From: a bacterium
Lineage (GTDB): Bacteria; Planctomycetota; Planctomycetia; Planctomycetales; Planctomycetaceae
Assembly (NCBI GenBank): GCA_016124895.1
Contig: WGMU01000023.1
Coordinates: forward strand, 1-64,000
Reading direction: 5' to 3'
Length of the DNA: 64,000 bases
Shown piece by piece: positions 16,688 through 62,583 of the stretch. Position 1 is the stretch's first letter. Every line of letters starts with the position of its first letter. A program made the translations under genes and the position numbers. The notes under the pieces are model-generated. The model had not been told where the DNA came from, made no database searches, and saw only the letters and a program-made list of their open reading frames with translations.

Positions 16688-16773
16688 GTAGGCCGGATCA
16701 AGCGCAGCGCCGCTCCGGCAGGTCGGCCAATTCCTGGACAATGCCGGAACTCGCTGCACTCGGTCCGGCCTAC
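16688..16773. repeat. MITE-like palindromic element, GTAGGCCGGA family
   Basis: An 86-bp element starts GTAGGCCGGATCAAGCGCAG and ends CTGCACTCGGTCCGGCCTAC. The ends are inverted repeats (reverse complement of the right end GTAGGCCGGACCGAGTGCAG) with three mismatches in the first 20 bases. It lies between the heme-protein start and the isomerase stop. Non-coding. Confidence 0.7.
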
Positions 16774-17709: not shown

Positions 17710-17826
17710 ACTCGTTCCAACGCTCTGCGTTGGAACGTTGCCACCGCCGTTGTGCAGCGATTCCGTTGCGGGAGTGGACGCGGATCGTTCAGACGCAGCG
17801 TTCCCACGCAGAGCATGGGAACGAGT
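17710..17826. repeat. MITE-like palindromic element, CTCGTTCC family, copy 2
   Basis: A 117-bp element with 28-bp terminal inverted repeats: 17710-17737 and 17799-17826 match at 25 of 28 positions when one is reverse-complemented (ACTCGTTCCAACGCTCTGCG against ACTCGTTCCCATGCTCTGCG). The internal GCCACCGCCGTT resembles copy 1 at 13366-13471. Each end is also self-complementary (CGTTCCAACGC...GCGTTGGAACG), so each can form its own hairpin. Confidence 0.8.
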
Positions 17827-21077: not shown

Positions 21078-21134
21078 CAAGCCGCAGGCGTGCGAGTACT
21101 TCCCCCCAGCGTGAACGCGCACGCCTGCGGCTTG
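21078..21134. repeat. Palindromic element, CAAGCCGCAGGCGTGCG
   Basis: Perfect 17-bp inverted repeats at 21078-21094 and 21118-21134 enclose a 23-base loop. With one gap the pairing extends outward through GTTTGRCC. It fills most of the queF-ATPase gap. There is no T-run in either direction, so it is a repeat element rather than a standard terminator. Confidence 0.75.
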
Positions 21135-27055: not shown

Positions 27056-27457
27056 CATCACTCCTCTGAGATTCGCGGTATTTCCGAACGGACTGTCTGA
27101 AAGGGCTTCCAACTGAGCAGCACTGAGTGACTTTTCTGGCAAATACGAAGTAAGAACTCTCCGCATTCGTGCTCAGTGGGCAGGAAGGGACGCTGAGAAT
27201 ACCCTTGCCGTTACGTCTCTGCCATGAAAATGACTCTGCCGGTCGAATTGGTTCTGAGCGATTGAATAGTTGGGCAGCTTCACTTTCGGTTGCCGTGCAA
27301 GCACGAAGCGCCAGCGAGTGAGTCATTTACGTCAAATACACTCGCTGGCGCTTCGTGCTTGTCTCCTCGCAGATTTCCCCAAAGTGGAGCGGCCCAGAGA
27401 GTTTCCAGTCTCGAAACTGTTCCACCGCCAGCCCGGGTTCACGATTAGGAAATCGTC
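27056..27457. other. Divergent intergenic region containing a palindrome
   Basis: 402 bp between the CBS and sialidase-like genes. Apart from the 64-bp palindromic element I see no gene. It should hold promoters for both divergent genes. Confidence 0.4.
27298..27361. repeat. Palindromic element, CAAGCACGAAGCGCCAGCGAGTG
   Basis: Perfect 23-bp inverted repeats at 27298-27320 and 27339-27361 enclose an 18-base loop (each arm begins CAAGCACGAAGCGCCAGCGA on its own strand). No T-run follows. This motif is familiar to me as a dispersed intergenic repeat of planctomycete genomes, but only one copy is in this window. Confidence 0.85.
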
Positions 27458-29763: not shown

Positions 29764-30921
29764 TCAGGAATCACGCCCCGGCAGAAAGCCGACGGTTGAT
29801 TCCAGAATGCGATGACGAGCGGACTCGGTCGACGCTTCGGCCGAGTTCAGCTCGTTCGTCAGGTCGTCGAGGTTCGCTGAGCAGAACCGGCAACCGAGTT
29901 CGCTCGTGTGAAAAGCGACGTACCGATCCCACTCGTCGGTCAGCGCGCCCAGCACGAACTTCCCCAGCGTCGACCGCTTCGGACACGTTGGTCGAGTCGA
30001 CTCCCAGACGCGCGTCAGTAGTTCGTCGGATGGAGAGCCGCTGCGATCCGGCACCGCATCGTCGCTCTCTGCCGCTTCAACGCGGCTTGCGACGCGGCGC
30101 AGAAACCGGTGCTTCAACACGGCGACCGCGGTTTCCTCAAGTTTAACCAGCGCCGCAATCTCACAGTTACGTCGCCCGGCGAAGAACAGCAGATCGAAGA
30201 CGACCAGATCGCGAAATTTCTGCTGGGTTTTCAGTTGTCCGGTGACTGCTGCAACCGCCGCGGCCAGCGTCTGCAGATCAGCCGCGTCCTGTTCGGCGCG
30301 CCGTACGTACCAGCTCGGCGACTGAGCCGCTGGCTGGTCGAGTTCGCTCGCCTCAATGTCCGCACCGGAACCGCCTCCGGTCACCAGCGTCACTTCGCGG
30401 CGGCTTCCGAGCCGTCGATATTGATCCGCAATCCGCCGCCGCAGGATCTGAAACAGCCAGGTCTCCAGACTGGCTTCGCCGCGAAAACCGCTCAACGACT
30501 TCAACAGACTGACGAAGGTTTCCTGCACGGCGTCTTCGGCATCGGATTCCTGCCTGAGCTGCGTTCGGGCAAACGCCAGCAGACGACCGTGATACTCGGC
30601 GACGAGCTGCGACCACGCCTGCGCATCTCCACCACGAATTGCCTTGATCAAGGGTTCAGAGCAGGTCGGTTCGACTGGCACACATTGCTCTCCAGCAGGC
30701 TCGCTCATCGGCCCATTAGATTCGTTGATTGAAAAGCCGCCATCGCAGGGATCAGGAACCAGCGGCTCGTCAAAGTCCGACAGTAAATCAGCGACGGCTC
30801 GACATTGAGCACACTCTGCCAGATGCCGTGCGATGGTCGCTGTCCCGGCTGCCGACGCAACCCTTCCACGCAGAATCGTGGCGAGCAGTTCGCCATCGGG
30901 ACATGGAAGAGGGATCGCCAT
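29764..30921 (-). CDS. ECF-type sigma factor with N- and C-terminal zinc-finger motifs
   Basis: A 385-residue protein, about twice the usual ECF length. Residues 33-40 (HLAECAQC) form an H-x3-C-x2-C motif like the zinc site of anti-sigma factors. Sigma region 2 lies at about 100-170 (LAFARTQLRQESDAEDAVQE then TWLFQILRRRIADQYRR). Region 4 is at about 240-285 (LFFAGRRNCEIAALVKLEET), ending RFLRRV. The C-terminus has a second site, His338-x5-Cys344-x2-Cys347, after TCPKRSTLGKFVLGAL; this tail resembles a domain common in planctomycete regulators. The gene starts 20 bp after the stop of the DUF4129-type gene, so it is probably the last gene of a three-gene operon. Zinc-finger ends may make the sigma redox- or metal-responsive or mediate autoinhibition; this is inference. 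Confidence 0.85.
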   Translation of the reverse strand: MAIPLPCPDGELLATILRGRVASAAGTATIARHLAECAQCRAVADLLSDFDEPLVPDPCDGGFSINESNGPMSEPAGEQCVPVEPTCSEPLIKAIRGGDAQAWSQLVAEYHGRLLAFARTQLRQESDAEDAVQETFVSLLKSLSGFRGEASLETWLFQILRRRIADQYRRLGSRREVTLVTGGGSGADIEASELDQPAAQSPSWYVRRAEQDAADLQTLAAAVAAVTGQLKTQQKFRDLVVFDLLFFAGRRNCEIAALVKLEETAVAVLKHRFLRRVASRVEAAESDDAVPDRSGSPSDELLTRVWESTRPTCPKRSTLGKFVLGALTDEWDRYVAFHTSELGCRFCSANLDDLTNELNSAEASTESARHRILESTVGFLPGRDS

Positions 30922-30941: not shown

Positions 30942-32906
30942 TCAGGAAGCCTGCCCCAGTTTTCGCCACAGCTTTTCCAGCAACGCCAGATTATCCGGCT
31001 GAGCGCGATACCCGGCGTAAGCAACGCGGGCGTAAAGCTGGCTGAGGTCGTTCGCTTCCGCCGCAAACGGCAGCCTGCGTGTCTGGAGTTGCTGGCCGTA
31101 CTCCATCGGTGTCTGATCCGGCGACCGCGGGCAGCCATGCTCGAAGCCCCACGCCTGCAGGGCCTCAAACGTATATCGCACCAGTTCCGACGGCGAGTGC
31201 TTCGCCGCCGCTCCTGACGCAAACGGATTTTGAAACGCAGCGAACGGCCGCGGCGGAGGTTCGGGCTCGGCGGTTTCTTCAACGGTCGAAGTTGCCGGCG
31301 TCCGGCGCCCAAACAGACCGAGCAGCTCGCTCCACAGCCGCGTGAAAAAGTTCGCGATCGAATCACGATAGACATACAGCAGCCAGAGCGACGCGATCGC
31401 CAGCAGGCCGTACATCACCCACTTGAAGAGACCACCGATCGAGCTGAAGACGGACGTCAGATCTGGAGTGCTGGTCTCCGGCGTCTGCGGAGTATCCATC
31501 CCGGCCGAGTCGCTCTCCGAGTCACCTGCCGCGTCCTGCGACTCCTGATTCTGCGCGACCTGGTCGTTTCCCGACTGCTGCGACTGCTCGCCGCTCTCCT
31601 GCTGCTGGCCGCTCTGCTGCGAGCCATCCTGTTGCTGCGACTGCTGACCGTTTTGCGACTGGTCTCCCTGCTGACCGCTTTGCTGTTGCTGGCCACCCTC
31701 GTTCTGCTGATTACTCTGCTGCTGCGACTGGCCGTCCTGTCTGGACTGCTGAGAATTTGCCGACTGCTGCTGCTGAGACTGCCCCGAAGACTGACCGTCT
31801 CCCGGCGACTGCGAATCCGGCTGCCCCTGATCGGTCTGTTGAGCGTTGTCATCGCTCAGATTGCCCTGCTGCTGCCCGCCGGCCTGTCCCTGCTGATCCT
31901 GAGCTTCGGCCGCACCCTGTTCGGCTTCGTGCGACGCCGGCCCGGAATGCTGACCGTCGCCCTCTCCGCCTTCGTCATTCAGAAACGCGACGTCGGCTGC
32001 TTCCTGCAGTTCGTCGCCGGCTCGATCGATCAGGTCAACCAGCGAGTAGTCGCTCTGCGGACGCGGGATCAGCAGCGCCACGATCAGAATGCCAATCGCA
32101 ATCGTTGCTCCCATTCCGACCCAGGTCGCAGCCATCGTTGTCGGCATCTGCAGTTGCCGCTGTCGCAGGTAGCGTCGCAGCCCGAGAAAACTCGTCAGCA
32201 GCAGCAGCCCGAGTCCCGCCGCCACATAAATCAGCAGCAGCTTGAACGCCGCATCCCGCGATGCCGCGCGGCCTGCGGGAATCATCGTCTGCCCGAAACC
32301 GAAGATCGGCAACGCGGCCAGAGAGAAGTAAACAACCCACAACCCCGGAGCGTGCGGTCGGCCTTCCCGCTCGCCCACGTTCAAAAACAGCCGCTTCCAC
32401 AGCGGCGTACGCTGGCCGTCGCTGTCTGCCGCGGCGCCCCGCTGCTCCGATTCACCGGTCTCTGACGACTGCGTCAAATCCGCGCCGTCGTCGACGCCAG
32501 CCACCTGCAGCAGGCCCTCGCCCGACGCGTCTTCGGACTCGTCGATCAGAGTGCAGTCCCAGGTCAGCTTGTCGGTACACCACCAGATGACGGCGAGACA
32601 CGCGATCGGCAACCACGGAGAATCTGGCACGAATCTGAAGATCGCCAGCGCCGTCGCTCCCGCCAGACCCGCAGTAAACAGGCCCGACTGAGCCCGACCG
32701 CTTTCGATCGCGATCCGTGAAATCAGCACCATGCCGAACACGAACCAGAACAGAATCCACCGCACTCGGCTTTCGTAAGTGACGCTCCCCGAAAACAGTT
32801 CGAGTAGAAAAAACACGAGACTGCCGACCAGCAGCATGATCAGCACCGGCGTCACCGCGATCGCCAGATAGTCAGCCAGCGTTTTGTCGAGTCGCTTGCG
32901 AGCCAT
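30942..32906 (-). CDS. DUF4129-type membrane protein with a Gln/Ser/Gly-rich tract
   Basis: A 654-residue protein. Four transmembrane segments lie in the first 115 residues (YLAIAVTPVLIMLLVGSLVF, WILFWFVFGMVLISRI and two more). Three follow at about 190-285, then a 140-residue low-complexity stretch of Gln, Ser, Gly and Asp (about 335-475), one more membrane helix (WVMYGLLAIASLWLLYVYRD) and a C-terminal domain of DUF4129 type (LVRYTFEALQAWGFEHGC, QTPMEYGQQL, LYARVAYAGYR). DUF4129 proteins usually accompany transglutaminase and MoxR/DUF58 genes in envelope clusters. ATG start without a visible Shine-Dalgarno; an in-frame TTG lies two codons upstream. It is 137 bp downstream of the large coiled-coil gene and 20 bp upstream of the sigma gene, same strand. 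Confidence 0.75.
   Translation of the reverse strand: MARKRLDKTLADYLAIAVTPVLIMLLVGSLVFFLLELFSGSVTYESRVRWILFWFVFGMVLISRIAIESGRAQSGLFTAGLAGATALAIFRFVPDSPWLPIACLAVIWWCTDKLTWDCTLIDESEDASGEGLLQVAGVDDGADLTQSSETGESEQRGAAADSDGQRTPLWKRLFLNVGEREGRPHAPGLWVVYFSLAALPIFGFGQTMIPAGRAASRDAAFKLLLIYVAAGLGLLLLTSFLGLRRYLRQRQLQMPTTMAATWVGMGATIAIGILIVALLIPRPQSDYSLVDLIDRAGDELQEAADVAFLNDEGGEGDGQHSGPASHEAEQGAAEAQDQQGQAGGQQQGNLSDDNAQQTDQGQPDSQSPGDGQSSGQSQQQQSANSQQSRQDGQSQQQSNQQNEGGQQQQSGQQGDQSQNGQQSQQQDGSQQSGQQQESGEQSQQSGNDQVAQNQESQDAAGDSESDSAGMDTPQTPETSTPDLTSVFSSIGGLFKWVMYGLLAIASLWLLYVYRDSIANFFTRLWSELLGLFGRRTPATSTVEETAEPEPPPRPFAAFQNPFASGAAAKHSPSELVRYTFEALQAWGFEHGCPRSPDQTPMEYGQQLQTRRLPFAAEANDLSQLYARVAYAGYRAQPDNLALLEKLWRKLGQAS
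31505..31905. repeat. Coding low-complexity tract (CAG/CTG-rich)
   Basis: About 400 bp dominated on the plus strand by CTGCTG, CTGACC and CTGCGACTG units, encoding QQSGQQGDQSQNGQQSQQQD-like sequence in the DUF4129-type protein. Such DNA is prone to slippage, so length variation between strains is likely. It is part of the gene, not a separate element. Confidence 0.7.
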
Positions 32907-58391: not shown

Positions 58392-58448
58392 CAGGGTGCG
58401 TGCAACGCACCTTCACCAGCATAGTCTCGGTGCGTTTCACGCACCCTG
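58392..58448. repeat. Palindromic element, CAGGGTGCGTGMAACGCACC
   Basis: Arms 58392-58411 and 58429-58448 are inverted repeats matching at 19 of 20 positions, around a 17-base spacer. Each arm also contains a small internal palindrome (GGTGCGT...ACGCACC). It fills the gap between trpF and the DUF1015 gene. Non-coding. Confidence 0.8.
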
Positions 58449-60781: not shown

Positions 60782-61483
60782 GTGATTGCCCCGCACATTT
60801 TCGAACCGTCTTCTGGCGACACCGCGACCGGCCCGCTTCACGACAATCCGCCGTCGCGGATTTCCTCAACAGACGAGCCAGCCACTTTGTCGGTCTGGTC
60901 GCGATGGGTTCGATCGGTCGTCTCGATCATCCTCGTCCTGCACCTGCTGGCAATTGTCTCTGCCCCGTGGGCAATGGCGCCATCGTCGGTGCTTGCTCAG
61001 CGAGTGTTCTCATTTTTTCAGCCGTACGTTGATCTGGCGTTTCTCAATCATGGTTACCACTTCTTCGCTCCAGAGCCGGGTCCGAGCCACATCATCCGGT
61101 ACGAACTGCAGCTCGACGACGGCCGGCAGGTCACCGGCAAGTTTCCCGACCCACAACAACACTCACCGCGGCTGCTGTATCACCGCCACTTTATGCTCAG
61201 CGAAACAGCCAACCGCCTCGCTGTCGATCCAGCTCAACAGGCCGCGCTGGATGAACTGACGCGATCGTTCGCCAAGCACCTGATGACTCAGTATTCAGCG
61301 AGCCGGGCGACGCTCTTTCTGAGACGCCACTACATCCCGACGCCCGAGCAGGTCGCGTCCGGCCTGCCGCTCGACGCCCCGGAACTCTTCGCGGAACGAC
61401 CGCTCGGCACGTTCGATCGAAACTCGCTGTACACCTCGGGAGAAAAACGAGTTGCCTTTGGCCAGCAAGGAGCCGTCCGATGA
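60782..61483 (+). CDS. Single-pass membrane protein paired with HTTM protein
   Basis: A 233-residue protein starting with GTG (60782). After 40 polar residues a single membrane helix (SVVSIILVLHLLAIVSAPWA) leads into a periplasmic domain with a FFQPYVDLAFLNHGYHFFAP segment, PGPSHIIRYELQLDDGRQV, LLYHRHFMLSE and a C-terminal Leu/Arg-rich helix. I know this protein type as the standing neighbour of HTTM genes in planctomycetes; its function is unknown. Its TGA overlaps the next ATG (ATGA), so the pair is translationally coupled. No ATG with a good Shine-Dalgarno was found near the start. Confidence 0.72.
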   Translation: MIAPHIFEPSSGDTATGPLHDNPPSRISSTDEPATLSVWSRWVRSVVSIILVLHLLAIVSAPWAMAPSSVLAQRVFSFFQPYVDLAFLNHGYHFFAPEPGPSHIIRYELQLDDGRQVTGKFPDPQQHSPRLLYHRHFMLSETANRLAVDPAQQAALDELTRSFAKHLMTQYSASRATLFLRRHYIPTPEQVASGLPLDAPELFAERPLGTFDRNSLYTSGEKRVAFGQQGAVR

Positions 61484-62583
61484 TCCGCGACTGGTTCCGT
61501 TCGCTGTTCAGTGCCTCCGTCGACGGCTGGAACCGCTTCTGGTTTACGCCGAGCCACCCGGCGGCACTTTCCATCATCCGTATCGCGACCGGCACGCTGC
61601 TGTTCTATTCCCACCTGATCTGGGCGCTGAACTCATCGAACTTCTTCGGTCCGGAAAGCTGGCTGAACGGACCGGCGGCCGACGCCCTGCGCGGCGGCAG
61701 CTATTCCTGCAGCCTGCTGTCACTGATCGACGGGCACCCCGCCGCGCTGTTCGCCGTTCACGCTCTGGCGCTGACGGCGTCGCTGTGCCTGACCGTCGGC
61801 TGCTTCTCGCGAGTCGCTGCGTTAGCGACGTTCGTTCTGACAGTCTCTTTTGCGAACCGGAATCCCGCGGCGCTGTATGGCTTCGACCAGATACTCGGCT
61901 TCGTGACGCTGTACCTGAGCGTCAACCCCGGTCACGGCTGGCTGTCAATTGACGCCTGGCGAACCCACCGAAAGAGTGCCACTGCCGGCTTGCCCGGCAG
62001 TGCTTCAGTCCAGACGAAACTCACTGCTGGACAAGCCGGCAGTGGCACCCGGCCAACCGGCCGTCGGTCCTCAGCCGTCGGCCGTCAGCCGTCCGTCACC
62101 ATCGCGACGCGGCTGATCCAGCTCCACCTGTGCCTGCTCTATTTCGTGGCGGGAATCTCGAAGCTGAAAGGGGCGACGTGGTGGAGCGGCGTGGCGTTCT
62201 GGGGAGCAATCGGCAATCAGGAATACCAGACCGTCAACCTGACAAGCCTCGTCCACTGGCCGGTGATCATCAACCTACTGACCCACGTGACGCTGGCCTG
62301 GGAGCTCTCGTACGTCTTCGTCGTCTGGAACCGCTGGCTGCGCCCGTTCGTCCTGGCAATGGCCGTCGCTGTCCACGCCGGCATCGGCCTCTGCTTCGGT
62401 ATGATGACCTTTGGAATGATCATGATCACTGCCAACGTCGCCTTCGTGAGTCCACAGTTGATCCTGCAACTGGCCGGAGTACCGACTCTCGATCCGACCC
62501 GTTCCGAGCCGTCCACGAATCGAGCCTCCCGCCTGCACACTCCGGGTCGAACCGGTACTCTGGAAAAAACGCGACCGGCGTAA
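61480..62583 (+). CDS. HTTM domain membrane protein (gamma-carboxylase-like fold) with an internal repeat-encoded segment
   Basis: A 367-residue polytopic protein related to the horizontally transferred transmembrane domain shared with vitamin K-dependent gamma-carboxylase. Membrane segments include ALSIIRIATGTLLFYSHLIW, ALFAVHALALTASLCLTVG, LCLLYFVAGISKLKGATWWS and LAMAVAVHAGIGLCFGMMTF. LKGATWWSGVAFW and HAGIGLCFGM are family motifs with conserved Lys, Trp and His. Between two helices the sequence reads RKSATAGLPGSASVQTKLTA, encoded by a MITE-like palindrome. The start overlaps the upstream stop (ATGA) with AAGGAG in place. Activity (carboxylase or other) cannot be told. Confidence 0.82.
   Translation: MIRDWFRSLFSASVDGWNRFWFTPSHPAALSIIRIATGTLLFYSHLIWALNSSNFFGPESWLNGPAADALRGGSYSCSLLSLIDGHPAALFAVHALALTASLCLTVGCFSRVAALATFVLTVSFANRNPAALYGFDQILGFVTLYLSVNPGHGWLSIDAWRTHRKSATAGLPGSASVQTKLTAGQAGSGTRPTGRRSSAVGRQPSVTIATRLIQLHLCLLYFVAGISKLKGATWWSGVAFWGAIGNQEYQTVNLTSLVHWPVIINLLTHVTLAWELSYVFVVWNRWLRPFVLAMAVAVHAGIGLCFGMMTFGMIMITANVAFVSPQLILQLAGVPTLDPTRSEPSTNRASRLHTPGRTGTLEKTRPA
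61976..62048. repeat. Palindromic element inside the HTTM coding sequence
   Basis: Inverted repeats at 61976-62002 and 62022-62048 match at 25 of 27 positions (outer 17 bases, GTGCCACTGCCGGCTTG, are perfect) around a 19-base loop. The element is translated in frame as part of a loop of the HTTM protein. Directly downstream (about 62050-62098) a short GCCGTC-rich tandem pattern follows. Confidence 0.8.

Follow-up and report, generated by a model that had tools for sequence, protein, structure and literature searches.

A translated REPIN-like palindrome in a planctomycete HTTM-domain gene and the reading frame of its intragenic relatives

Within the 64,000-nt stretch of planctomycete DNA analysed here (the window), a 73-bp palindrome is read as protein inside the gene for a putative membrane protein. 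This arrangement raises two questions, namely what kind of element the palindrome represents and how such DNA persists inside coding sequence.

The palindrome and its host gene

The host open reading frame encodes 367 aa and matches the Pfam HTTM family above its cut-off (E 1.7e-10). As the initial annotation had proposed, the palindrome lies in frame within this gene and comprises two 27-nt inverted arms, 25/27 complementary (93%) and 19 nt apart (Table 1). Each arm folds into a hairpin of 9 bp with GTGC as its four-base foot, and the two arms facing one another form a larger hairpin. The predicted DNA fold of the strand has an energy of -32 kcal/mol, compared with -13.0 +/- 2.4 for shuffled sequences (z -7.9; 0/200 as good).

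Table 1. Positions of the element, its host gene and related features. Positions are those of the window unless a locus (L) or contig (C) is named.
Feature	Position	Strand	Basis
HTTM-domain membrane protein gene, REPIN host	61480..62583	+	ORF, 367 aa, Pfam match
REP arm 1: foot GTGC and hairpin CACTGCCGG-CTTGC-CCGGCAGTG	61976..62002	+	arm pairing, fold, genome-wide family
Spacer between arms, 19 nt	62003..62021	.	sequence differs from copy to copy
REP arm 2, inverted	62022..62048	-	arm pairing, consensus match, fold
Net insertion, 75 nt = 25 codons SATAGLPGSASVQTKLTAGQAGSGT, HTTM residues 166-190	61975..62049	+	absent from relatives
Variable loop after REPIN, partly simple repeat (CAGCCGTCGGCCGTCAGCCGTC)	62050..62104	+	altered form in congener
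Further translated repeats in host loops	L021 1576-1720; window 62059-62104; L018 1580-1610
REPs around the C10 RAYT gene	30633-30659 and 31327-31353	+ and -	arm search
Palindromes of other families, no coding frame through them	17710-17826, 27298-27361, 16688-16773, 21078-21134, 58392-58448, 1786-1888
Composite-repeat copies	L005, L009, L010, L017, L028, L118, L124, L134, around 1350-1730

Alignment of orthologues supports the earlier view of this segment as an insertion. Specifically, it is lineage-specific and absent in 15/15 relatives, in which the corresponding loop measures 18-32 residues compared with 49 here, and no distant orthologue was found to carry the segment without palindromic DNA. 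The DNA of a congener (genome G001) also lacks it and is shorter by a net 75 nt (25 residues); the alignment resolves this into a gain of 76 nt and a nearby loss of 1, leaving the exact insertion boundary uncertain. The arrival of the element in this gene is recent. The gene is still constrained, with a dN/dS of 0.25 over 325 codons in the comparison with the congener.

In an AlphaFold2 model built from 13 sequences, the insert forms a coil between helices 157-169 and 204-229 and is among the residues of lowest pLDDT. This model (mean pLDDT 52.5) is too poor for a fold search and serves as illustration only. The element lengthens a variable loop between two predicted helices.

Host loops next to the REPIN carry further translated repeats (PLTPALSPKGGEGAG, QPSALS and SAVGRQPSV; Table 1), which gives the impression that repeats of different classes accumulate in them.

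A dispersed REP family and its candidate transposase

A search of the 8.13-Mb genome that contains the window (G000) recovered the further copies that the initial annotation had anticipated: 76 arms of the consensus GTGCCACTGCYGGCTTGYCCRGCAGTG with <=3 mismatches (36 forward, 40 reverse), while the reversed pattern used as a control gave 0 matches. In the window itself only the two HTTM arms fit the consensus at <=5 mismatches. These counts bear on the notion that the palindrome is a chance product of point mutations, to which the variable and partly repetitive nature of the HTTM loop lends some appeal. Arm 1 matches the consensus without a mismatch, the genome holds 74 other arms, and this genome-wide copy count rules out a chance origin, leaving it a negligible probability.

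Inverted pairs account for 33/47 sites in G000, and at one hairpin pair a compensatory C-G/U-A change is found in 11/31 distinct arms. The foot is GTGC in nearly all G000 copies and GTGG in most copies of genome G040; the canonical form is GT[AG]G. Family-like matches are present in 18/59 genomes searched (own included), most of the others as single arms. Exact full pairs occur in 9/397 genomes of the class (own included), with 75 pairs in genome G399. The family has these traits of REPs and REPINs: a short palindrome that folds as a hairpin, inverted pairs, many dispersed copies far above chance, and a mainly extragenic distribution (35/47 sites not interior to genes). At 73 bp, the HTTM element falls short of the ~100-150 bp of the Rickettsia palindromic elements (RPE), which reportedly were described by Ogata and colleagues in 2000 and 2002.

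Other palindromes in the window had been regarded as intergenic elements of the same kind. The six that were tested have no coding frame through them, in agreement with the first part of that description, but they belong to other repeats. One of them, at 16688-16773, belongs to a second REP family (GTAGGCCGGAYCRAGCGCAGCG), for which the genome search gave 94 arms and the reversed pattern 1. In this second family (GTAGGCCGGA...), 3 of the 38 arms read lie interior to genes.

The genome contains eight matches to PF01797. One of these genes (G000:C10:30721-31305) has a single REP of the HTTM-palindrome family on each side, the two being inverted relative to one another. Its product matches the NCBIfam model REP_Tyr_transpos (NF047646) at 87.9 bits, above the cut-off of 80, and contains EHVH and YIHMNP; its best match of solved structure is TnpA-REP (4er8), a weak one (E 0.0016). 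This REP also flanks homologous RAYTs (54% identity) in G040 and G019, with 0-1 mismatches, and a variant of it at 3-4 mismatches flanks a RAYT in G004. No REP of this family was found beside 8/12 RAYT loci read. Judged from sequence, the architecture of the element and its cognate gene are those of a putative REPIN/RAYT system.

This assignment departs from the initial annotation, which had called the element MITE-like; it is better described as a RAYT-associated REPIN than as an IS-derived MITE. A classical MITE moved by a DDE-type IS, with the RAYT as a bystander, would share the small size and inverted ends seen here. However, each arm is a footed hairpin, the whole element has no separate terminal repeat, and the same arm flanks RAYT genes in three genera at 0-2 mismatches, which together render a DDE-type origin highly improbable. 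The target-site duplication that had been suggested as a mark of insertion is not visible at the HTTM site; none is expected from IS200/IS605-like HUH transposition. Across the family, GG and CC are strongly conserved at the edges (58/62 and 54/62) and could be part of either the element or its target. Strong conservation does not extend to any other base of the target.

Copies inside genes: frame, length and selection

A site was called genic if the frame is open through the element and both flanks are coding-like by codon usage, the element itself being left unscored. This rule places 12/47 G000 sites in gene interiors. The hosts, by Pfam or NCBIfam name, are HTTM, RecC, UvrA, IleRS, a squalene-hopene-cyclase-like protein (SHC), MurG, peptidase U32, LeuRS, a hydantoinase A/B junction, an Lhr-like helicase, an FGE-like protein and a PMT-type glycosyltransferase (GT) near its end; two of the 12 calls are weak, FGE because it has a single degenerate arm and GT because it is close to the protein end. 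Random window positions are interior to genes in 278/400 cases, and the family is thus depleted in genes, yet far from excluded. The proposal that these elements insert into genes and are tolerated as linkers gains eleven further genes with an in-frame copy. In G399, a genome of a second genus of which 378 kb of ~4.3 Mb was sampled, 6/15 sites are interior to genes (4 independent loci), and in G001 3/10 sites are, in the same frame and common to G000.

The MurG insert lies between the two domains, and the UvrA insert between the two ATPase halves, both in gaps of the alignment to solved structures. The inserts of IleRS (query 275 to 312 versus 213/213 of 1ile) and LeuRS (286 to 341 versus 236/237 of 2v0c and 1h3n) occupy stretches lacking from the solved structures, beside the editing domain. 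The intragenic copies all encode a linker of Gly/Ala/Ser/Thr, which in most cases lies in a loop or where two domains meet.

Two further observations concern individual hosts. In a QueC-family protein of G399 (L283 5009-5150), the region upstream of the Pfam match contains three tandem REP arms, translated as repeats of TAGQASSGTQTPGENSRKN. The UvrA insert is present in two species (L014 1503-1576 and L089 1500-1573), and REPs are reported in uvrA of Opitutus terrae and Thioalkalivibrio in the text consulted of PMC3733652; such elements may thus land in UvrA repeatedly.

All 12 genic copies in G000 are translated in one frame, xATAGLPGS...TAGQAGSGT, whichever contig strand holds the gene, and so are 6/6 genic copies in G399. 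The full linker form is GATAGLPGS-(~8)-TAGQAGSGT; a copy was assigned to this frame by (G/S/R)ATAGLPGS or a variant of it, or by the second-arm counterpart TAGQAGSGT. The linker frame has a GRAVY of 0.0, and in it the consensus arms lack Cys, Trp and His. The alternative frames read VPLLACPAV...LLGKPAVAP, which is hydrophobic (GRAVY +1.5), and CHCWLAQQ...HCWASQQWH, which is rich in Cys/His/Trp (GRAVY -0.7, with nine Cys/Trp/His). Stop codons as the cause of the single frame were considered and rejected: the consensus arms hold none, and of 44 readings of non-genic copies, 34 are open in phase 0, 38 in phase 1 and 34 in phase 2.

Copies at an ORF start or with one weak flank were dropped from these counts (L012, L015, L129, L123, L128 and L017 in G000; L284, L289:5963, L289:14934, L293, L304 and L305:902 in G399). 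Some of them are in other phases (phase 0 for L012, L015, L304 and L289:14934; phase 2 for L305:902 and L128), which fits N-terminal or non-coding places; were they coding, they would lower the 12/12 and 6/6.

A single frame could also arise from target choice, if the transposase cut beside a motif that falls mostly in one codon phase. The strength of the GG/CC at the element edges accords with this, as does its somewhat higher frequency at the needed phase within genes (0.37 in G000, 0.40 in G399), and TGG alone reaches 0.545 in G399. Nevertheless, at phase frequencies of 0.37-0.40 the probability of 12/12 is ~1e-5 and that of 16/16 independent loci (including four from G399) ~1e-7, and even the most favourable three-base motif tried gives 6e-5 for 16/16. 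Motifs such as CGG and TCGG favour other phases, and the target shows no strong conservation beyond GG/CC. Target choice is thus an unlikely source of the one-frame rule, and selection among insertions is the reading we prefer.

The length of the copies points in the same direction. The commonest genic length in G000 is 73 bp, and the copies of G399 measure 76 bp; both lengths are 1 mod 3, so that with two further bases the frame is kept. Genomes with frame-shifting copy lengths have 0/32 genic sites: 0/22 in G040 (mostly 74 bp; distinct sites from fetched loci) and 0/10 in six further genomes (74-86 bp). Given that frame-shifting insertions are not callable by the genic rule, these zeros signify that tolerated copies are absent, not that no insertion occurs. 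The contrast between genomes is significant (Fisher p 0.0002; 0.004 for pairs only). Within G000 alone, a length of 1 mod 3 is seen in 7/9 genic and 9/24 non-genic REPINs (p 0.06), a bias that we rejected as proof of frame selection, since p is 0.22 after copies belonging to a composite repeat are dropped. The case therefore rests on the reading frame and the between-genome comparison. The composite repeat itself (~110-310 bp aligned; Table 1) holds a REPIN and is found in at least 8 copies of 72-91% identity that are apparently intergenic.

Comparison with the congener indicates how the inserts evolve. Nine sites were compared at the DNA level, with RecC, IleRS and FGE left out; five are common to G001 (UvrA, SHC, U32, Lhr and GT), and four are absent from it (HTTM, MurG, LeuRS and hydantoinase). 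Host flanks have dN/dS values of 0.09-0.28 overall. For UvrA, U32 and Lhr, the values are 0.09-0.13 in the flanks and 1.1-1.7 in the insert; for SHC, the second arm of which is out of the linker frame, the insert gives 0.27. These insert values derive from 25-31 codons each and are rough. Purifying selection acts on the hosts, and three of the four shared inserts change at a roughly neutral rate. The pattern is most simply read as insertion at many positions followed by survival as a near-neutral linker.

It is very unlikely that intragenic copies are instead kept for a function of the RNA or DNA (an mRNA hairpin, attenuation, or a gyrase or IHF site), with the peptide incidental. Although the hairpin has high stability, and effects of REPs on mRNA stability and termination are known (PMC6006769, in the part consulted), such a function predicts neither one reading frame nor placement at domain boundaries, and some shared copies (U32, GT) have lost much of their pairing with the frame kept.

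A mechanism and its relation to known systems

We propose that the element is a REPIN, an inverted pair of REP hairpins that would be the non-autonomous unit of a RAYT system. The RAYT would transpose the unit in single-stranded form and place it beside a GG dinucleotide, and insertions would fall in any frame and place. Purifying selection would then remove those that shift the frame, interrupt structured parts, or are read in the hydrophobic or the Cys/His/Trp frame, and the remainder would be translated as mostly neutral linkers. At the HTTM gene, the 73-bp unit adds a net 75 nt, which preserves the frame. We consider this sequence of events, from RAYT-driven insertion in any frame to purifying selection that leaves in-frame linkers, very probable.

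A more far-reaching possibility, which we regard as rather doubtful, is that the element is itself protein-safe, selection for low host cost having shaped both a frame-keeping length and arms that encode a benign Gly/Ala/Ser/Thr linker in the surviving frame, which would let the unit persist inside essential enzymes. IleRS, LeuRS and MurG are essential. The idea would span two planctomycete lineages of different families, with 73-bp and 76-bp units.

REPs are named for their extragenic position, and here roughly twelve genes of a single genome contain copies of one family, always in one reading frame. Such copies would constitute a natural experiment in the conversion of mobile DNA into protein and in the tolerability of linkers. 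They are also informative about RAYT activity, which has hardly been studied in this phylum, and they caution annotators and structure modellers that 25-residue loops of this kind are probably transposon-derived.

REPINs, or REP doublets, and their RAYTs were described by Bertels and Rainey (2011; PMC3116915), where the text consulted calls REPs primarily extragenic. As in that account, an inverted pair of REP hairpins is the unit here, copies are dispersed, and a RAYT is flanked by REPs; unlike it, the foot is GTGC in place of GT[AG]G and a quarter of the copies are in frame inside genes. Intragenic dimers of GTAG and CGTC REPs, adding 20-30 aa, were reported by Di Nocera and colleagues (2013; PMC3733652), with hosts that include uvrA, recBCD and tRNA synthetase genes and with loops or linkers proposed as their fate. 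The REP dimers and these hosts resemble ours. A single reading frame is not reported in the main text of that study, which, its supplement aside, names planctomycetes for REP families and not for intragenic copies. REPs in frame inside RAYT genes have also been noted (PMC6006769, in the part consulted). In the literature searched, supplements aside and some papers seen in part, we found no report of a single reading frame, a length rule or intragenic planctomycete REPINs. Intragenic REPs and translated palindromes are already known, and it is the one-frame rule that we did not find in print.

Two other groups of repeats invite comparison. RPE are palindromic repeats found in frame in conserved genes, solvent-exposed and near neutral, with an active gmk product, according to the portions consulted of PMC2229807, PMC10969869 and PMC3767692. 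They resemble the present elements in being palindromes translated in frame inside genes and differ in their greater length, set against 73-76 bp here, and in that no RAYT link was found for them in those portions, whereas the present family is RAYT-tied; this comparison is by size, not by sequence. The Correia elements of Neisseria occur at 107 and 155 bp, one size class being open and present in genes and the other not (Delihas, 2007; PMC2229807, in the part consulted). They are alike in that one size class is tolerated in genes. Unlike the present family, they are MITEs with a TA target motif, and the difference between their classes stems from stop codons, whereas here it stems from length modulo 3.
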